DNA of 13,644 bases from Candidatus Agrococcus pullicola. Its GTDB lineage: Bacteria; Actinomycetota; Actinomycetes; Actinomycetales; Microbacteriaceae. This document shows, piece after piece, positions 1,021-13,124 of the stretch. The notes under the pieces are model-generated. The model saw only the letters and a program-made list of their open reading frames with translations, searched no databases and had not been told where the DNA came from. The DNA is taken from assembly GCA_019115685.1 (NCBI GenBank), contig DXDC01000191.1, positions 1 to 13,644 of the forward strand, written 5' to 3'. Position 1 is the first letter of the stretch. Each line of letters begins with the position of its first letter. The position numbers were made by a program, and so were the translations under genes.

Positions 1021-1818
1021 GTGACAGAAGCAACGTCGTATTTCGTCCGAATCGATGAACGCACTTTCAAGGCGACCGAGCACGTCTCAGGGGCGTGGAA
1101 CGTCGATGAGCAACATGTCGCGCCCTCCTTTGGACTACTCGTTCATCTGATCGAACAGGAACACATGGGCAGACGGGATGACCGCTTGGTCATCGGCAGG
1201 CTGTCGTACGACATCCTCGGAGTGTTCACGCTGGACGAAATCGAGATCGACATTCGCGTTCTTCGACCGGGTAGGACCATCGAGCTGGTCGAGGCGACGC
1301 TGTCGCAGGGCGGCCGAGCTGCTGTCATTCTGCGAGCGTGGTTCATGCAGCCTTTCGATACTGCGGCGATAGCGGCCAATGAGCTGCCCGGCATTCGGGA
1401 TCGCGAGGACATGGGAGCAGGCCGCATCACCGACGAATGGCCCGGAGGATGCGTGCGATCGATCGACGTTCGCAGCAGTGAAGAGCACCCCGGTCGCGCC
1501 TCGTCATGGGTGCACCCGTTGGTTCCGCTGATCGAAGACGAGCCCACGAGCGACCTCGCCCGGATAATCGGCATGGTGGATTTCGCGAACGGCCTGACGC
1601 CGAGACAAGCAATCAACTCCGTCGCCTTTCCCAACCTGGACCTGACCATTCACATGATCCGCCAGCCGTCGGGAGAACGCCTCGGATACGACACGTCGGT
1701 CTCGTATGGTGCGAGCGGCGTCGGTCTCACACACACGGTTCTGCACGACGAATCGGGCCCGTTCGGCGTCGCGGCTCAAAGCCTGACGGTGCGCCCTTTG
1801 TCAGCGCTACCCCAGTAG
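1021..1818 (+). CDS. Thioesterase-like (double hotdog) protein
   Basis: This 265-aa protein resembles the acyl-CoA thioesterase-like (TesB / 4HBT_3) proteins common in actinobacteria. They carry two fused hotdog folds and would hydrolyse or bind acyl-CoA in the cytosol. The first hotdog half is visible: FGLLVHLIEQ is the helix region, and GRLSYDILGVF followed by IEIDIRVLRPGRTIELVEA are strands typical of the family, where a bulky motif is followed by 'R.Gr..e.v.a.l.q'. The second half runs from about residue 150 and includes DFANGLTP and an NLDLTIHMIRQP strand near residue 210. I chose GTG 1021 because GAGGA lies just upstream and an in-frame GTG at 985 falls inside the probable -10 box. The 3' end overlaps the convergent response-regulator gene by 12 nt. 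Substrate unknown; the fold assignment is firmer than the activity. Confidence 0.8.
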   Translation: MTEATSYFVRIDERTFKATEHVSGAWNVDEQHVAPSFGLLVHLIEQEHMGRRDDRLVIGRLSYDILGVFTLDEIEIDIRVLRPGRTIELVEATLSQGGRAAVILRAWFMQPFDTAAIAANELPGIRDREDMGAGRITDEWPGGCVRSIDVRSSEEHPGRASSWVHPLVPLIEDEPTSDLARIIGMVDFANGLTPRQAINSVAFPNLDLTIHMIRQPSGERLGYDTSVSYGASGVGLTHTVLHDESGPFGVAAQSLTVRPLSALPQ

Positions 1819-2478
1819 CCCCTCGTGCAGCGCCCGCAGCACTGCGTGGGTTCTGTCTCTGGCTCCGAGTTTGACGAGCAGCGTCGAAACGTGGTTCTTG
1901 ACCGTGCCTTCGGCGAGGAACAGCACTTCGGCGATCTCCCTGTTCGTGTAGCCCTCCGCCATGAGCCGCAGCACCTCTGTTTCCCGTTCCGTGAGCGGCC
2001 GCATAGGGGGCGCATCGGCTCCGACCGGAGACGGTCCCGACTTGATCGCTCGCAGCAGCCGGTCGGTGATGGAGGGAGCGATAAGCGTGCCGCCCGCCGC
2101 CAACGACCTCACGGCCTGCGCGAGCTGCTCGAGCGTGACGTCCTTCAGCAGGTAGCCTCGCGCGCCGCCGCGAAGCGCGTCGAGCACGAGCGTGTCATCG
2201 TCGAACGTGGTGAGCACGAGCACGGGCACTTCTGATTCACGCTCAGCCAACTGAGCGAGCGCCCACAGCCCGTCATACTTCGGCATCCTGAGATCGAGAA
2301 GCACGACGTCGGGCTGCTCTTCCTCAATGACCTCGATGGCGCGGGCCCCGTCATCCGCTTCCCCGACAACCTCGATCTCCGCAATCGTCAGCAATGTCCG
2401 TATACCTTGCCGAACGAGCGTCTGGTCGTCGACGATGACAACTCTGGGCCGGCTGCCGGACCCCGCTTCGCCGCTCAT
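1807..2478 (-). CDS. NarL/LuxR-family response regulator
   Basis: This 223-aa DNA-binding response regulator has an N-terminal receiver domain (about residues 12-125) and a C-terminal LuxR-type helix-turn-helix (about 160-215). Acid-pocket residues are Asp17/Asp18, the phosphoacceptor is Asp62 in LLDLRMP, the switch Thr is Thr90 and the conserved Lys is Lys112 in GYLLKD. The HTH shows LTERETEVLRLMAEGYTNREI followed by EGTVKNHVSTLLVKLG. The ATG overlaps the stop of the histidine kinase gene as ATGA (2475-2478), so the two are translationally coupled and form one two-component system. Its likely targets are the divergent ABC genes and its own operon; a dyad lies between them at 3639-3675. The 3' end overlaps the convergent thioesterase gene by 12 nt, leaving no room for a separate terminator. 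All key residues are present. Confidence 0.95.
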   Translation of the reverse strand: MSGEAGSGSRPRVVIVDDQTLVRQGIRTLLTIAEIEVVGEADDGARAIEVIEEEQPDVVLLDLRMPKYDGLWALAQLAERESEVPVLVLTTFDDDTLVLDALRGGARGYLLKDVTLEQLAQAVRSLAAGGTLIAPSITDRLLRAIKSGPSPVGADAPPMRPLTERETEVLRLMAEGYTNREIAEVLFLAEGTVKNHVSTLLVKLGARDRTHAVLRALHEGLLG

Positions 2479-3602
2479 ACGGCGGGCACCTGCCGCGCGG
2501 CCAACGGAACTCGAGCGACGATGCCGAATCCGTTCGAACCATCGAGTTCGACATCTCCATCGATGGCGTCGAACCGCTCGATCATGCCCCGCAACCCATT
2601 TCCCGGTACCGGATGTGCGGCTCCCCTGCCGTCATCCAGCGCTTCGAGACGAACCGCGCCATCCTCCTCGTACCGGACACGAATCTGCAGCTGATGCGCG
2701 TCCGCGTGCCTCATGGTGTTGGTCGCGATCTCTTGCACGGCACGCACAAGCACCTCCTGCACATCTCCGTCGACGCGTACGTCTTCGTCAACACTGACAG
2801 CGATGTCCAGACTCGGAATCCCGTCGACAACGCCCTGCAACGCTCCGGTGAGGTCCGATGACTCCTCTCGCATCTCGCTGACCGTAGCGCGCAGGTCGCC
2901 CAGCACCTCACGTGCCACCGATGAAGCCTTTTCGACGTGCGTACGAGCTGCCTCGTCTTCGCTGTGCCTGGCGGCTTCGAGTTCGAGGCTCAGCACGGTT
3001 AACTTGTGCCCAATGGAATCGTGGAGATCTCGCGAGATCCGCAAACGTTCCGCGGTACGAGTGCTCTCCTCGAGCAGTACACCGGCAGCCTGCAACTCGA
3101 TGTTCTTCTCAGAGAGCCGCTTTCGCATCGTCTGCTCGCGGATGATGGCGGAAGACGACAGCGCGGTGCCGACCTGCAGGAGCAAGTAGAGCCCGGTCAC
3201 GAGCACGATCTCCGTAACGTTCGGAGCACTGAGGTACGACGCGACAGCAAGAACAATCGTATTCCCCAGGATGACGCATCCAACGAGGATGAAGGGCACG
3301 ATATAGACGCTGACCGCCGCGAACACGACAGAAATGATCGCCAGGAATCCGGTACTGCCCGCCGTCGTCAGCAGCAGCACCCACGAGGCGACGACACCGA
3401 CGCAGAAGAGCACCGTCCCCCACCGCTGACCGTCGCTGAGTAGACTGAGCGTCGCTGCAGCGAGCATGCCGATGAAGACACCGACCCAGGCGAGGTACGG
3501 TATAGACGGTTCCACGAGACGGAACAGCACCGGATACGCTGCACCGACCACAACGGCAATCATCGCCAGCCCGGCCCAGTAGTCGGCAGTCATTTGTTTC
3601 AC
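2475..3602 (-). CDS. DesK/NarX-type sensor histidine kinase
   Basis: This 375-aa membrane sensor kinase autophosphorylates on His and passes phosphate to the overlapping response regulator. The N-terminal third (about residues 8-155) is a run of five or six hydrophobic segments with almost no extracytoplasmic domain, as in kinases that sense within the membrane. A short helical linker follows. The HisKA_3 box is RISRDLHDSIGHKLT with His194. The ATPase domain has the N-box around Asn295 (EIATNTMRHA), DDGRG at 323-327 and GNGLRGM at about 335-341. I chose GTG 3602 because TACCCT lies exactly 6 nt upstream, the leaderless arrangement shared by its divergent neighbour. ATG 3593, three codons in, is the alternative. 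By analogy with YvfT or LnrJ, the divergent exporter suggests it senses a membrane-active compound. The ligand cannot be read from sequence. Confidence 0.93.
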   Translation of the reverse strand: MKQMTADYWAGLAMIAVVVGAAYPVLFRLVEPSIPYLAWVGVFIGMLAAATLSLLSDGQRWGTVLFCVGVVASWVLLLTTAGSTGFLAIISVVFAAVSVYIVPFILVGCVILGNTIVLAVASYLSAPNVTEIVLVTGLYLLLQVGTALSSSAIIREQTMRKRLSEKNIELQAAGVLLEESTRTAERLRISRDLHDSIGHKLTVLSLELEAARHSEDEAARTHVEKASSVAREVLGDLRATVSEMREESSDLTGALQGVVDGIPSLDIAVSVDEDVRVDGDVQEVLVRAVQEIATNTMRHADAHQLQIRVRYEEDGAVRLEALDDGRGAAHPVPGNGLRGMIERFDAIDGDVELDGSNGFGIVARVPLAARQVPAV

Positions 3603-3608
3603 ACTTTC

Positions 3609-3614
3609 AGGGTA
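3609..3614 (-). promoter_or_regulatory. -10 element of the histidine kinase operon (leaderless)
   Basis: TACCCT on the minus strand is followed by 6 nt and GTG 3602, so transcription should begin at or next to the start codon. The -35 position (about 3632-3637) reads GGGCAG, far from TTGACA, which suggests dependence on an activator. Confidence 0.5.
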
Positions 3615-3638
3615 ATCGCACCGTAGCCCACCTGCCCC

Positions 3639-3675
3639 TGCCAAAAGTCATGCACCGGGAACGTGACAGCTGGCA
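3639..3675. promoter_or_regulatory. Spaced dyad, candidate operator of the response regulator
   Basis: The pattern is TGCCA-N3-GTCA-N13-TGAC-N3-TGGCA, centred on base 3657. Twelve of its 18 base positions pair symmetrically. A further inverted pair, CACCTG (3629-3634) and CAGGTG (3676-3681), flanks it. The centre is the midpoint between the two divergent start codons (3602 and 3713), leaving 37-38 bp to each, where a dimeric LuxR-type activator would touch both promoters. The symmetry is seen directly; the protein that binds is inferred. Confidence 0.5.
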
Positions 3676-3700
3676 CAGGTGCGGGAGTGAAACGCGCGCA

Positions 3701-3706
3701 TAACGT
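3701..3706 (+). promoter_or_regulatory. -10 element of the ABC exporter operon (leaderless)
   Basis: TAACGT is followed by 6 nt (CGAAGC) and ATG 3713. No Shine-Dalgarno sequence precedes the ATG, which fits a leaderless mRNA. The -35 position (about 3678-3683) is poor, matching the weak -35 of the divergent kinase operon. Confidence 0.5.
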
Positions 3707-3712
3707 CGAAGC

Positions 3713-4453
3713 ATGACGAAAGAACTAGCGGTCGAGACCACGAATCTTCGCAAGAGTTACAAGGGCAGAGCCGTAGTCGATGGCATCAGTCTCGGCATCG
3801 AGAAAGGCACGACGTACGGCATCCTCGGGCCGAACGGCGCAGGTAAGACAACCACGGTGGAGATGATCGGCGGGCTGCGCAAACCGGACTCCGGCGCTGT
3901 ATCCGTGCTGGGGCTGCATCCTGTTCGAGAACGGGCTCGGCTACGACAGGTGCTCGGCATCCAGCTGCAGAGCGCTCTCCTGCACGATGCGCTGACGGCT
4001 AAGGAGCTCGTCGATCTCTATAGGAGCTTCTACCCGAACCCCCGTTCGGTGGAAGAGACTCTCGGACTCGTGCACCTGAGCGAACAGCGGAACACACGGT
4101 TTCAGAAACTGTCCGGCGGTCAACAGCAACGACTCTCGGTCGCTCTCGCGCTCGTGGGACGTCCGGAAGTCGTGATCCTCGACGAGATCACGACAGGGCT
4201 CGACCCCACCGCCAGGCGGCGCATCTGGGCAACGCTCGAAACTCTGCACGACGACGGCGTCACCGTGTTGATGGTCAGTCATGCCATGGATGAGGTCGAG
4301 CGGCTGTGCGATCGAGTCGCGCTCATCAAGGACGGTCGCGTTCTCATCGAAGACACACCCGCAGGCATCACCGAATCGGCCGGAGCCGAGAACCTCGAAG
4401 AAGCGTTCGTCAGCCTCACCGGCACCGAAATCTATGAAGGAGAAGCAGCATGA
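3713..4453 (+). CDS. ABC-2 type exporter, ATP-binding protein
   Basis: This 246-aa cytoplasmic ATPase energises the permease encoded next to it; family members export antibiotics, lipids or peptides (DrrA/NodI-like). Walker A is GPNGAGKTT (residues 39-47), the Q-loop is near Gln84, the signature is LSGGQQQR (133-140), Walker B ends in LDE at 156-158, the D-loop is GLD (162-164) and the H-loop His is His190 in MVSHAMDE. The proline after the catalytic Glu (DEPT in most ABC proteins) is Ile159 here; hydrophobic residues at this place occur in related actinobacterial exporters, so it is probably functional. The stop overlaps the permease ATG as ATGA. The gene is divergent from the two-component system, implying control by it. 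Substrate unknown; an exporter for a toxic membrane-active compound is the best guess. Confidence 0.94.
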   Translation: MTKELAVETTNLRKSYKGRAVVDGISLGIEKGTTYGILGPNGAGKTTTVEMIGGLRKPDSGAVSVLGLHPVRERARLRQVLGIQLQSALLHDALTAKELVDLYRSFYPNPRSVEETLGLVHLSEQRNTRFQKLSGGQQQRLSVALALVGRPEVVILDEITTGLDPTARRRIWATLETLHDDGVTVLMVSHAMDEVERLCDRVALIKDGRVLIEDTPAGITESAGAENLEEAFVSLTGTEIYEGEAA

Positions 4454-5229
4454 CCACGGAACTCACGCGGGCGACAGCACGCCGACCCGGTCCCCGCGCA
4501 TGGAAGATGCTCATCCTCTCGGAAGCGAAGAGCCTCGCACGCGATTACGCGAGTCTGCTCCTGCCGCTCGGGCTTCCTCTTTTGGTGCTCCTTACGAGCG
4601 CAAGCATGGCTTCGTCCGAGGCGATCGGAACGGACGGATTCACCGCCTTCGAGTTCTATGTCCTACCGATCGTGCTGACGATGGTCTTCGCATACATCGG
4701 CATGCTGAATATGCCGACGTATCTCTCCTACTATCGCAAGTCGGGCATCCTGCGCCGGCTGGGAGCAACTCCTGCCTCGCCCATGATGGTGCTCGTTTCG
4801 CAAATCGTGGTCAATGCGCTGCTGTCGCTCATCGGTATTGCGCTCGCGCTCACGGTATCCTTCGTGTTCTTCGACGCTGTTGCACCGGCAAGCGTGCTCG
4901 CGGTTGCCGGAGCGGTCCTGCTCGTCATGGTCAGCATGTACGGCATCGGCATGATCGTAGCATCGCTCGCGCCGACCACGAATGCGGCGATTGCGATGGG
5001 TATCATCCTGTTTCTTGGTTTGGGCGCCCTCGGCGGCATGTTCGGGGGCAGAAATATCCTGCCGGATGCGTTGCAAGATGTAAGTCAGTACTTGCCGTTC
5101 GGCGCGGCATCCGACCTTTTGGCCGCGACCTGGACCGGGCAGCCGGTGGAGCTGTCGATGATCGTGCCGCTCGTCGTAGCTGCCGGTTGCAGTGTCATCA
5201 TCTCGCTGCTGTTCTTCCGTTGGGAGTGA
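4450..5229 (+). CDS. ABC-2 type exporter, permease
   Basis: This 259-aa inner-membrane subunit pairs with the ATPase just upstream, whose stop overlaps its ATG. Six hydrophobic spans are visible at roughly residues 35-51, 69-88, 112-140, 147-172, 178-197 and 236-256. Between spans two and three lies YRKSGILRRLGATP (95-108), the coupling region typical of the ABC2_membrane family, where 'E/RxxG.L.RL..TP' contacts the ATPase. QYLPFGAASD at 213-222 is the usual loop before the last span. The length is normal for a half-transporter, so two ATPases and two permeases would form the complex. It ends 8 bp before the convergent flavoprotein gene, with no obvious terminator between them. Function as a drug or lipid exporter is inferred from family and from the adjacent two-component system. 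Confidence 0.92.
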   Translation: MTTELTRATARRPGPRAWKMLILSEAKSLARDYASLLLPLGLPLLVLLTSASMASSEAIGTDGFTAFEFYVLPIVLTMVFAYIGMLNMPTYLSYYRKSGILRRLGATPASPMMVLVSQIVVNALLSLIGIALALTVSFVFFDAVAPASVLAVAGAVLLVMVSMYGIGMIVASLAPTTNAAIAMGIILFLGLGALGGMFGGRNILPDALQDVSQYLPFGAASDLLAATWTGQPVELSMIVPLVVAAGCSVIISLLFFRWE

Positions 5230-9704: not shown

Positions 9705-10178
9705 CTAGTCGGAGAGATTCACAACCTCGGTCGCGAGACCGCGTGGGTCATGGCGGTCGAGGTGGATGCGTTCCTGCTGTTTCCAGCCCTCCCACCAGGA
9801 GTCGTCGCCATCGCGGGCGAGCGCACGCGCGTGACGCACATCCTCTGGGGTATCCAGCCAGATCGCCCGTTCCGCGAAGACAACGGTAATGGGCGTAATA
9901 GCACCGCATCCCTCGACGATCAACGACTCGTGCGGATCAAGGGTGCGCTCATCGCCCCAGGCGTATGCGTGCCAGTCCCAATCGCGCCAACAAGCGATCC
10001 GACCGGCTGCACGCTCTGTGAGGATGCGCTCGAGGGTCGCGCAACCGATCATGAGCCCTTCCCAGCCCTCGTAGAGGTAGTCCATGGTGAGGATGCGTGT
10101 CCCGTCCGACGCAGCGAGCCTGCGCGCGTACGACGACTTGCCTGCACCTGAGCGCCCGTCGATCAGCGTCAGGCTCAC
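9705..10178 (-). CDS. P-loop kinase-like ATP-binding protein in thiamine operon
   Basis: This 157-aa P-loop NTPase looks like a small nucleoside/nucleotide kinase (uridine-kinase-like). Walker A is GRSGAGKS (residues 8-15). MDYLYEGWEGL (32-42) takes the place of the substrate-binding 'DDFY' segment of such kinases. RDWDWHAY (65-72) resembles the 'R.WDW' substrate motif of relatives. LIVEGCG (86-92) is the Walker B-like strand. ARALARDG with WWEGWKQQE (117-136) provides Arg residues of a lid. It should transfer phosphate from ATP to a small molecule in the cytosol. Its GTG overlaps the ykoC stop as GTGA, so it is translationally coupled as the last gene of the TPP-riboswitch operon. I do not recognise a family of known substrate. 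A thiamine, HMP or thiazole salvage kinase is a hypothesis from position alone. An incidental nucleoside kinase is the alternative. Confidence 0.82.
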   Translation of the reverse strand: MSLTLIDGRSGAGKSSYARRLAASDGTRILTMDYLYEGWEGLMIGCATLERILTERAAGRIACWRDWDWHAYAWGDERTLDPHESLIVEGCGAITPITVVFAERAIWLDTPEDVRHARALARDGDDSWWEGWKQQERIHLDRHDPRGLATEVVNLSD

Positions 10179-10930
10179 TGCGACCCCACGAGCCGGTAGC
10201 TTCCCGTCGCCACGGCGATGCCGATCGCAGCCGCAGCGATTCCCAGTGCGACGGCCACGACCACCCAGTCACGCCATGACACGGTCGAAGGCCTGGCCCA
10301 CGTGCGCTCCCCCGCACCGAACGCTCTTGCCTCCATGGCCGTCGCGAGCAGGGAACCTCGACGGATCGCGGCGACAAGCAGGGCGAACGCCATCGTGAAC
10401 CAGCGGCGTGCCGCTCCGTGATCTCCCAACCCGCGAGCACGACGCGCACCGGAGAGCGAACGCCAGTCGTCGGCGAGCACGCTGAACAAGCGCGTGCCCG
10501 CAAGCGCGCCCAGAACGAACCGTGACGGCAGCTTAACCACCTGGGCGAGCGAGTCGGCGAGTCTGGTCGGGTCTACCCCGACGAGGGCGACGAGCGTCGG
10601 AATGCCGATCGCCAGCACGCGCACGACGATCGCGGTGGCGAGCTCGATGGAGTTGTCGGTGACGTTGATCAGCCACCACGAGAAGTACGCCTCCCCTCCC
10701 GGCTTGGCGTACAGCAGCATGCTGATGCCGCTCAGGGGTGCGGCGAGGAGCAGCGGCCAGGTGCGGCGGACGATCGTTCTCGGGCCGATCCCCGCGCAGA
10801 AGAACAACAGCAACCAAATCCCAAGTGCCACCGATGCGCTGACGATGTCGATACTGGTGAGCATCGGAATCGAGTAGAGCATCGCCGCGAAGAACGGCAT
10901 AACGGGGTTCAGACGGTCAACGAGTTTCAC
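10175..10930 (-). CDS. ykoC: ECF transporter transmembrane (T) component, YkoC-like
   Basis: This 251-aa EcfT subunit is a membrane scaffold that couples ATP hydrolysis in YkoD to the substrate-binding YkoE. It has several hydrophobic spans (about 12-48, 58-74, 95-118, 180-196 and 222-242). The two coupling-helix motifs of EcfT are visible: RRARGLG (163-169, with ARG at 165-167) and MEARAFG (199-205). They insert into the grooves of the two ATPase halves. GTG 10930 overlaps the ykoD stop as GTGA, and its own stop overlaps the kinase GTG in the same way. The open frame extends 53 codons further upstream, but that stretch is out-of-frame translation of ykoD and has no membrane character. Family and context make thiamine or HMP the likely cargo. 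Confidence 0.92.
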   Translation of the reverse strand: MKLVDRLNPVMPFFAAMLYSIPMLTSIDIVSASVALGIWLLLFFCAGIGPRTIVRRTWPLLLAAPLSGISMLLYAKPGGEAYFSWWLINVTDNSIELATAIVVRVLAIGIPTLVALVGVDPTRLADSLAQVVKLPSRFVLGALAGTRLFSVLADDWRSLSGARRARGLGDHGAARRWFTMAFALLVAAIRRGSLLATAMEARAFGAGERTWARPSTVSWRDWVVVAVALGIAAAAIGIAVATGSYRLVGSQ

Positions 10931-12390
10931 AAGCCGCCCCTTTGACTCACGTCCGCGTGCAGAGCCAGCTTCTCCAAATGGATCCTCGCATCCCCGAGCA
11001 GTCGGATGAACTGCTCGTCGTGAGTCACCGACACCGCAGCGCCACCGGCATCGACGTGCTCTGCGATCATGACGGCGAGTTCGCGCCATGTCGTGCGATC
11101 CTGCCCGAACGTGGGTTCATCCAGCACGAGCACCCTCGGAGCGGTCGCGAGCACAGTGGCGACCGAGAGACGTCGTTGTTCGCCGCCCGACAGCGTGAAG
11201 GGGTGCGCGTTCGCAAGGTGCGACAGTCGCAAGCTCTCGAGCAGGCGGTCGACGATCGCCCCGGCGCCGGGGAGCTTCGCGACGCGCGGGCCGACGGTGA
11301 GTTCTTCACGTACACTCGCGGCGACGAACTGGTGCTCCGGCTGTTGGAACTCGGTACCGATCCGGGTGAGCAGGTCACGCGAGCGCCACCTGTAGGGATG
11401 CGGCGACCGAGAAGGCGCGAAACCGTCCGTGGCGTTCACGCTGCCAGCAATCGGTGCCGTGAGGCCTGCGAGCGCGTGGGCCAGAGTGGTCTTGCCTGCG
11501 CCATTCTCGCCGGTTATCACCAGTGATTCGCCGGCTCGCACGGCCATATCGACGCCCTGCTGCACGACGGTTTCGCCGAAGCCGACCGCCACTCCCGACG
11601 CGGTCAGCAGCACTCCGTTCGGGTTCGGTGTGCGATCGATAGTGATCGGGTGCCCGGGAATCCAGACCCCTCTCGCAGCAAGCGAGTCCCCGTGCTCCCC
11701 GATAACAGCATCCTTTGCGCCGTCCGCGAGCACGCCCCCGCCCGGTTCCAGCACGATGATGCGGTCAATGACGTCGTACCAGGCCTCAACCCTGTGCTCG
11801 ACGACGACCAGAGTGGTGCCAGATGCCGAAACGGTGCGATCGACAGTCTCGCGCACCTCGGTGATGCCGGCCGGGTCGAGGTTTGCCGTCGGCTCGTCGA
11901 GCAGCAGCAAGCCCGGCTGCATGGCCAGAACACCGGCCAGCGCGAGCCGTTGCCGTTCACCGCCGGAAAGCTCCGTGGTCGAACGTTCAAGCGGGTACCG
12001 CAGCCCAACCGCATCGAGCGCGCCGTCCACTCGATGCCAGATCTCCTCGCGCGGCACCCGCAGGTTCTCGCAGCCGAAGGCGACGTCATCCCCAATGCGC
12101 GAGAGGATCGTGTTCGCCTGCGGATCCTGCAGCACCAGGCCCGCACGGCCTCGCAGTTCGGATGCTCGGGTGCCGTCGATGGTCAACGATCCCGATTCGT
12201 CCCCCTCGTCCGCGCCGCCGAGCACGCCGGCCATCGCCGCCAGCAACGTTGATTTCCCCGCCCCCGACGGCCCCAGCAGCAGTACGCGCTCCCCCGGCTC
12301 GATCGTGAAATCGACACCGTCGAGTGCCGGATGGCGGCGAGATGCGTGCCGCCACCCCCACCCTTCGGCGACGATTCGGGCTCCTGTCAC
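10927..12390 (-). CDS. ykoD: ECF transporter ATPase with two fused ABC domains, YkoD-like
   Basis: This 487-aa protein holds both ATPase domains of an energy-coupling-factor transporter in one chain. In the first half, Walker A is GPSGAGKST (40-48), the Q-loop is Gln88, the signature is LSGGERQR (141-148), Walker B/D-loop is LLLDEPTANLD (162-172) and the H-loop is His199. In the second half, Walker A is GENGAGKTT (294-302), the Q-loop is near Gln349-350, the signature is LSGGEQRR (400-407), DEPTFGQD is at 424-431 and the H-loop is His457. Both halves look catalytically complete, joined by a linker at about 220-258. GTG 12390 overlaps the ykoE stop as GTGA. The open frame upstream to 12960 is only a shadow of ykoE. 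The fused double ATPase beside a YkoE-type protein is the B. subtilis YkoEDC arrangement. Confidence 0.95.
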   Translation of the reverse strand: MTGARIVAEGWGWRHASRRHPALDGVDFTIEPGERVLLLGPSGAGKSTLLAAMAGVLGGADEGDESGSLTIDGTRASELRGRAGLVLQDPQANTILSRIGDDVAFGCENLRVPREEIWHRVDGALDAVGLRYPLERSTTELSGGERQRLALAGVLAMQPGLLLLDEPTANLDPAGITEVRETVDRTVSASGTTLVVVEHRVEAWYDVIDRIIVLEPGGGVLADGAKDAVIGEHGDSLAARGVWIPGHPITIDRTPNPNGVLLTASGVAVGFGETVVQQGVDMAVRAGESLVITGENGAGKTTLAHALAGLTAPIAGSVNATDGFAPSRSPHPYRWRSRDLLTRIGTEFQQPEHQFVAASVREELTVGPRVAKLPGAGAIVDRLLESLRLSHLANAHPFTLSGGEQRRLSVATVLATAPRVLVLDEPTFGQDRTTWRELAVMIAEHVDAGGAAVSVTHDEQFIRLLGDARIHLEKLALHADVSQRGGL

Positions 12391-12989
12391 GAGACGCCGC
12401 GAACCTCTCTGCCTGCCGCGAAGCGGTTCAGCGCTCCTGTCGCGGCGAGCGCCCTCGTCAGCAGCCAGCCGAGCAGTCCCGCCAGCAGAGCGCCGGAAAT
12501 GATGAGTGCGATGAGATAGATCGTGAGGAAACCGGCGCCCATCTCGATGTTGCCGGAGAGGAACAGCTCCAACGTCCAGGCAGCGACAGCGGATCCGATG
12601 CCCGCCAGGACAGCGATGACCGCACCGAACCTGCGGTAGAAGAACAGCAGGAAAATGAGCTCCGCGCCCAAGCCCTGGATTATGCCCGAATAGATGGTCT
12701 CGACGGCCCACTGGCTGCCCAGCAGCATCGAAACGGTCGCTGCGAGGGTTTCGACGTAGAGTGCGGCGCCGGGCTTGCGGATGATGAGCCCTCCGAGCAC
12801 ACCTCCGATGAGCCAGACGCCGACGGCGATGCCGCCGAACCCTGGCGTGAATGCGTCCATGGCCGAGAACCACGCGTAACCAGCGAAGTTCCAGAAGACG
12901 AACAACAATCCAACGGCGACACCCAGAACGGATGCCACCACGATGTCGATAACGCGCCACCGCAGTGAGCGCGCAGACTTCTCAGTCAT
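12387..12989 (-). CDS. ykoE: ECF transporter substrate-binding (S) component, YkoE-like
   Basis: This 200-aa membrane protein is the substrate-capture subunit of a YkoEDC-type vitamin transporter, specific for thiamine or its HMP moiety in characterised or predicted relatives. It has about five or six hydrophobic spans (roughly 14-34, 50-70, 78-92, 104-118, 121-143 and 151-177). Family landmarks are FVFWNFAGYAW (30-40), GVWLIGGVLGGLIIRKPGAA (57-76) and SGIIQGLGAELIF (101-113). ATG 12989 has an AAAGG Shine-Dalgarno sequence (12998-13002) 8 nt upstream. The open frame continues to 13190 but would cross the TPP aptamer, so the long form is rejected. It is the first gene of the riboswitch-controlled operon, and its stop overlaps the ykoD start. 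Thiamine specificity rests on both the family and the upstream TPP riboswitch. Confidence 0.95.
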   Translation of the reverse strand: MTEKSARSLRWRVIDIVVASVLGVAVGLLFVFWNFAGYAWFSAMDAFTPGFGGIAVGVWLIGGVLGGLIIRKPGAALYVETLAATVSMLLGSQWAVETIYSGIIQGLGAELIFLLFFYRRFGAVIAVLAGIGSAVAAWTLELFLSGNIEMGAGFLTIYLIALIISGALLAGLLGWLLTRALAATGALNRFAAGREVRGVS

Positions 12990-12994
12990 AACTA

Positions 12995-13019
12995 GTGCCT
13001 TTCGATAGGTGAACGGCAC
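12995..13019 (-). promoter_or_regulatory. Ribosome-site-sequestering hairpin of the TPP riboswitch
   Basis: On the minus strand GTGCC (13015-13019) can pair with GGCAC (12995-12999) across a 15-nt loop. The 3' arm contains the last two bases of the AAAGG Shine-Dalgarno sequence of ykoE (12998-13002). This would block translation. GTGCC can instead pair with GGCGC (13037-13041) at the 3' side of the aptamer, giving a mutually exclusive ON state. Confidence 0.6.
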
Positions 13020-13023
13020 GGGT

Positions 13024-13120
13024 GAGATACCTCCCTGCGCCGGCATTATCCGGTTCAGGTTCGACGGTCGAGGGCTGCTCGCCCTCCTCTCAGCCTGGCT
13101 CCACCAAGCTCCCGTGTACT
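13024..13120 (-). ncRNA. TPP riboswitch (thi-box)
   Basis: Reading the minus strand, the hallmarks occur in order. The P3 stem is CTTGG/CCAGG around a TGGAG loop. The conserved CTGAGA follows, with its last base near 13090. The hairpin GAGGGC/GCCCTC has a 5-nt loop. The conserved ACCTGAACCGGATAATG comes next (about 13060-13044), then CCGG and GCGCAGGGAG (13040-13031). This is the thiamine-pyrophosphate-sensing aptamer; TPP binding turns the operon down. It lies about 35 nt upstream of ykoE, with a Shine-Dalgarno-sequestering hairpin and no T-tract terminator between, so control is probably at translation. The outer boundaries are approximate. Confidence 0.95.
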
Positions 13121-13124
13121 GCCC

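Follow-up and report, generated by a model that had tools for sequence, protein, structure and literature searches.

A uridine-kinase-fold P-loop protein encoded with the YkoEDC importer is a probable thiamine kinase

The riboswitch-headed operon and its P-loop kinase

The window analyzed here is a stretch of 13,644 nucleotides from Candidatus Agrococcus pullicola (contig DXDC01000191.1), a member of the Microbacteriaceae. Open reading frames (ORFs) and an RNA scan showed that its minus strand carries, in this order, a thiamine pyrophosphate (TPP) riboswitch, ykoE, ykoD, ykoC and a gene for a P-loop kinase of 157 amino acids (aa), which is the subject of this study. The riboswitch (13015..13124, minus strand, as for all features of the operon) belongs to RF00059, with 57.4 bits against a gathering threshold of 54.3 (E 2.7e-9). 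The ykoE gene (12387..12989, ATG at 12989) encodes the S (substrate-capture) component of an energy-coupling factor (ECF) thiamine importer, a protein of 200 aa matching PF09819 with 129.8 bits (cut-off 25.2). The fused double ATPase YkoD (10927..12390, 487 aa) matched ABC_tran over two stretches and cbiO over its cut-off. YkoC (10175..10930, 251 aa), the T component, belongs to the CbiQ family (PF02361, 47.7 bits, cut-off 25) and scored 54.9 bits against the cobalt-specific TIGR02454, under the cut-off of 111.8. A PF09819 S component, a double ATPase and a CbiQ-type T component are thus encoded in one operon, as expected for a YkoEDC ECF thiamine importer.

The kinase gene (9705..10178), a candidate for conversion of thiamine and ATP to thiamine monophosphate (TMP), comes last. 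By direct reading, successive genes are joined by 4-nt GTGA stop/start overlaps at 12387..12390 (ykoE/ykoD), 10927..10930 (ykoD/ykoC) and 10175..10178 (ykoC/kinase). The initial annotation of this DNA had described a TPP-riboswitch-headed operon with three such overlaps, and this layout was confirmed.

A database search recovered 750 homologues of the kinase at E <= 0.001. The named ones among the best 120 of these were mostly from Agrococcus, Brevibacterium and Microbacterium, and the Agrococcus kinases were the closest named relatives among the matches listed, at 80% identity. The NCBIfam family PRK06547 (NF005115, 'hypothetical protein'), which has no assigned function, matched with 155.1 bits (E 1.1e-45), below its curated cut-off of 173; the window kinase is a divergent homologue of this family over nearly its full length. 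The Pfam scan gave seven matches up to E 1, none of them at cut-off, and the ribokinase-fold enzymes ThiM and ThiD were not among them. Neither the thiamine kinase ThiK (TIGR02721) nor thiamine pyrophosphokinase (TPK, TIGR01378) appeared among its NCBIfam matches up to E 1. Identification as a uridine or cytidylate kinase was rejected, all curated families being below cut-off (TIGR00235 udk, 12.5 bits vs 220.3).

An AlphaFold2 model of the kinase was of high confidence (mean pLDDT 96.6, pTM 0.91). The solved folds of highest Z score were those of uridine-cytidine kinase (17.0, 155 residues aligned), phosphoribulokinase (16.8), pantothenate kinase (15.1) and nicotinamide riboside kinase 1 (NRK1, 12.0), and Foldseek placed the model in the same superfamily. 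The full-length structural match to solved members thus predicts a uridine-kinase-like P-loop fold, a resemblance that had initially been noted from the sequence alone. At the sequence level the relationship is distant: the best solved relative by single-sequence search reached only E 0.034, the best profile match was the uncharacterised P-loop protein 1rz3 (E 1e-9), and identity to the superfamily of uridine-cytidine kinase, phosphoribulokinase, type I pantothenate kinase and NRK was 13-22%. Moreover, the window kinase differs from these enzymes in its linkage to thiamine importers and in having its own motifs (YxGWxG, WDW and R..R...RDG...W..W). Uridine-kinase-fold enzymes are small-molecule kinases that move one phosphate onto a hydroxyl group, and the shared fold alone does not show the substrate.

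The motifs were assessed in an alignment of 67 homologues. In the Walker A motif GRSGAGKS (residues 8-15, 10134..10157), which binds the ATP phosphates, G8, S10, G11, G13 and K14 are invariant. Residues 33-41 (D..YxGWxG, 10056..10082) hold a presumed catalytic Asp33 and aromatic residues that may line the substrate pocket; Y36, G38, W39 and G41 are invariant and D33 is found in 90% or more. Among transporter-linked kinases, W39 is kept in 54/54 rows and D33 is replaced by E in three of the 54. W69, within the WDW motif (residues 67-69, 9972..9980), is present in all 116 kinases of a larger alignment and is a candidate substrate-pocket tryptophan. Residues 115-124 (R..R...RDG, 9807..9836) would provide the lid arginines, with R115, R118, R122, D123 and G124 invariant. 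Further invariant positions are D68, W69, E89, G90, G92, W107, W129, W132, Q135 and E136.

Linkage of the kinase to several thiamine importers

Linkage was assayed in the window's family (f1, Microbacteriaceae), using 130 genomes passed through a completeness filter of 90%, with the window's own genome (78.7% complete) counted in, and thresholds of E <= 1e-12 for the kinase and E <= 1e-25 for YkoE. The kinase was found in 125 genomes and YkoE in 104. When both were present, the kinase lay 2.3-3.1 kb downstream of the YkoE match on the same strand in 90 of 102 genomes. In G202, G226, G275 and G286 a contig end cuts the operon, with ykoC still ahead of the kinase. Of the 90 genomes with the intact linkage, 50 were tested for a TPP riboswitch, and every one had it on the YkoE strand at most 600 nt upstream of the YkoE match, a few of the riboswitch matches falling just under the gathering threshold. 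Among 28 related loci from named genomes, a complete ykoE-ykoD-ykoC set stood directly upstream in 14, four had a partial operon limited by the contig, and ten had no yko genes (one of them, L022, with less than 1 kb of upstream sequence). The yko-linked named loci include Microbacteriaceae, Brevibacterium, Corynebacterium sp. 74A and Propionibacteriaceae; 10 of the 13 fully linked ones scanned at gathering (L028 left out) gave a TPP riboswitch match.

The kinase also accompanies other importers. Within f1, 13 kinases follow ThiB/ThiP genes: 10 in the 23 genomes that have the kinase and no YkoE match, and three in genomes whose YkoEDC is encoded elsewhere (G224, G242, G297). An ATPase gene separates ThiP from the kinase in 10 of these 13 loci, and in L073 the ATPase/kinase junction is a GTGA overlap too. 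ThiB was identified by TIGR01254 over cut-off in both loci tested (L073 and L074). Riboswitch matches exceeded gathering at 11 ThiB/ThiP loci and reached 53.0 bits at L072; L154, whose sequence starts inside thiP, was uninformative. In G181 (L086), the operon runs riboswitch, Thiamine_BP protein, permease, NMT1-type binding protein and ATPase, with the kinase last. The lid region of this particular kinase departs from the usual RALxRDGD pattern, and its genome has no ThiL match.

In a wider sample of 177 genomes of the class, the kinase family was found in 113. Among these are 15 genomes of family f25, one measuring 2.2 Mb and the others 1.2-1.5 Mb, and in 14 of the 15 (L126, L127 and L140-L151, not L128) a PnuC-family gene precedes the kinase. 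An RF00059 match was found at the pnu gene in all 14 linked loci, each below gathering (31.0-45.7 bits). According to PMC5301498, a THI element lies upstream of pnuC-like genes in acI actinobacteria, where these are interpreted as PnuT, and the acI strains are thiamine auxotrophs lacking nearly all enzymes of de novo thiamine synthesis and salvage. From genome size and this riboswitch feature we infer that f25 corresponds to the acI group. A kinase likewise follows a PnuC-family gene, confirmed by PF04973, in G120 (family f35). The kinase gene of G110 (f34) is flanked by genes for an NMT1-type binding protein and a permease.

On a tree of 116 kinases, well-supported branches require at least four changes of the YkoEDC label and at least three of the ThiBPQ label. 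Therefore the association has switched repeatedly, the partner still being a thiamine importer. In the class sample, 47 of the 53 YkoE genomes have the kinase, against 66 of the 124 others (Fisher p 3e-6, uncorrected for relatedness). The initial suggestion that kinase and importer share a job is supported by the conserved linkage and by its recurrence beside thiamine importers of unrelated families that carry TPP riboswitches.

Pathway profile and the probable reaction

TMP can be produced by ThiE or by a kinase acting on thiamine, and ThiL then converts TMP to TPP; TPK bypasses ThiL. Profile searches in f1 detected ThiL in 125/130 genomes (122 over cut-off), ThiE in 45/130 (42 over cut-off) and TPK in a single one. 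ThiK was over cut-off in 0/130, with weak matches only in 7. The route of imported thiamine to TMP was thus a gap in these genomes, which have thiamine importers and ThiL. Genomes with ThiL and without ThiE and TPK matches contain the kinase in 79 of 80 cases, the exception being G300; among those with both ThiL and ThiE it is present in 44 of 45 (exception G240, which has no YkoE match). The sole TPK genome of f1, G189, has YkoEDC and no kinase or ThiL match. This genome measures 0.93 Mb, and its TPK, which takes the place of kinase and ThiL, scores 186 bits against TIGR01378 (L061, C1:495500-503000; L062, C1:6000-14000). At the class level, ThiL was found in 173/177 genomes. Weak TIGR01378 matches occurred in 70/177 and were rejected as TPK: they mostly cover about 40-50 profile positions in frames of about 400 aa, none was over cut-off (0/177), and we take them to be another protein, probably SteA. 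The window's own genome encodes ThiL (C392:2284-3171) and ThiE (C128:1244-1849), and profile searches gave no match to TPK or ThiK in it.

Thiamine is common to the linked importers and needed by these pathways, which points to it as the substrate. Phosphates of hydroxymethylpyrimidine (HMP) or of the thiazole would be useless in genomes without ThiE, which again narrows the substrate to thiamine. Since ThiL is kept in kinase genomes, the product should be TMP. Gene context and pathway profile together make it highly probable that the 157-aa protein is a thiamine kinase (thiamine + ATP to TMP) with a uridine-kinase P-loop fold. A new class of vitamer kinase acting on thiamine, HMP or the thiazole alcohol had been proposed at the outset; the filled pathway gap supports thiamine, and the ThiE-less genomes speak against the other two compounds.

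The operon may thus be viewed as a thiamine salvage cassette. At low TPP, the riboswitch would permit its expression and YkoEDC would bring thiamine in. The kinase, which the overlapping genes would cause to be made in step with the importer, would convert thiamine to TMP and thereby trap it. The conversion to TPP would be completed by ThiL, whose gene lies outside the operon, elsewhere in the genome. In related bacteria, relatives of the kinase stand behind thiamine importers of the ThiB-ThiP(-ThiQ), PnuT and NMT1 types. It is likely that a new, unrelated family of uridine-kinase-fold thiamine kinases fills the step from thiamine to TMP in many Actinomycetes, probably including the abundant freshwater acI/Nanopelagicales, and that, by coupling to three or more unrelated thiamine importers, it works as a module tying uptake to phosphorylation.

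Other activities were weighed against a thiamine kinase. The protein could phosphorylate a precursor (HMP or thiazole alcohol) imported by YkoEDC and so feed ThiE, which we regard as improbable. NMT1-type binding proteins are often tied to HMP-like precursors, and their presence in G181 and G110 was counted in its favor. Moreover, PMC6593275 assigns YkoEDC to HMP as well as to thiamine; it lists ThiBPQ and PnuT as transporters of thiamine, not of precursors. In the 79 kinase genomes with ThiL and no ThiE match, phosphorylated precursors cannot be joined. A pyrophosphokinase yielding TPP in a single step is equally improbable. The near absence of TPK (1/130) and the lack of a ThiL match in G181 and G275, both carrying the kinase, would fit such an activity. 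However, ThiL would then have no substrate in the 79 kinase genomes without ThiE and TPK matches, the fold resembles that of kinases moving one phosphate, and the TIGR01378 profile gave no match to the window kinase.

There is still less to be said for a nucleoside kinase, or a nicotinamide riboside kinase beside a pnu gene, carried in the operon. The adjoining pnu gene has a TPP riboswitch match in 14/14 linked f25 loci, and such THI-element pnu genes of acI are read as PnuT in PMC5301498. Besides the low udk score, the kinase is common to several thiamine importers, which argues against both versions. Finally, the gene could be a passenger that plays no part in thiamine metabolism and is held in place by conserved gene order within one family, which would agree with adjacency to YkoE in only 4 of the 53 YkoE genomes of the class. 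This is the least probable reading, given the linkage to unrelated importer families, the repeated partner switching on the tree and the near-perfect match to genomes with ThiL and neither ThiE nor TPK (79/80).

Several observations weigh against assignment as a thiamine kinase or limit its reach. A distribution of the homologues largely apart from thiamine genes had been named in advance as evidence against a thiamine role: the nearest clades proved linked (90/102 in f1), but in the wider class the homologues are scattered, and just 4 of the 53 YkoE genomes there have the kinase adjoining YkoE. The kinase was not found in six of these 53, nor in G300 (L060), which has YkoEDC, a riboswitch and ThiL and no ThiE, TPK or kinase match. 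No obvious substitute kinase was seen downstream of ykoEDC in five kinase-less genomes (L060, L075-L078) inspected by eye without a database search, G029 and G071 not being covered. Conversely, G181 and G275 (the latter 90% complete, in about 150 contigs) have the kinase and no ThiL match. For 16 of the 125 f1 kinases no importer was recognised beside them, partly as judged by eye. The genes ahead of the kinase in G295 (L084) encode an ABC transporter of the peptide/nickel type, with SBP_bac_5 and a YejF-like double ATPase, possibly a further thiamine importer or an unrelated context. In L083, L088 and L094, riboswitch, ThiB and ThiP are followed directly by the kinase, and no ATPase gene was found in the sequence retrieved; the importer ATPase must be encoded elsewhere or shared. 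No TPP riboswitch match was found at gathering in the yko-linked named loci L007, L008 and L014, nor over gathering, lower scores not being searched, in the linked loci L114 (f34) and L121 (f35) or in L084. Basal unlinked kinases keep the motifs partly (W39 in 6/10, W69 in 10/10), and D33 is replaced by E in 9 of 42 other unlinked rows. The PnuT-linked and unlinked relatives have diverged and might use other substrates, and thiamine kinase function may not span the whole PRK06547-like family.

Relation to known systems and neighboring genes

The reaction proposed here is already known, and it is the protein family that seems new. ThiK/YcfN of gammaproteobacteria performs the same step, converting thiamine to TMP for ThiL to act on. 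It is, however, an enzyme of the aminoglycoside-kinase-like type, and its profile neither matched the window kinase up to E 1 nor gave a match over cut-off in any f1 genome. ThiN/TPK likewise salvages imported thiamine; its profile leaves the window kinase unmatched, and its fold and product differ from those proposed for that protein. The logic of the operon resembles that of PnuC with NadR or NRK, in which an importer and a cognate P-loop kinase trap nicotinamide riboside, whereas here the vitamer is probably thiamine and the importer family varies. A literature search of titles and abstract openings, with partial cover and few subscription papers, found no description of this kinase family or of an actinobacterial thiamine kinase.

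If the assignment is correct, one uncharacterised family would close the gap between thiamine and TMP for many bacteria, and genome models could then predict thiamine salvage correctly. The family would add a structurally different way of phosphorylating thiamine, and it would be a clear example of an import-and-trap module exchanged among importer families.

Inspection by eye revealed some further features. Unlinked kinases at L012, L068, L087 and L095 adjoin apparent glycogen/trehalose genes. In G091, an ORF resembling a kinase of the aminoglycoside-phosphotransferase type (L063, 4797-5546, minus strand) is convergent to ykoC, and the P-loop kinase is encoded elsewhere in that genome. In the window itself, positions 1807-5229 hold an apparent response regulator and histidine kinase on the minus strand beside an ABC-2-type exporter pair on the plus strand.

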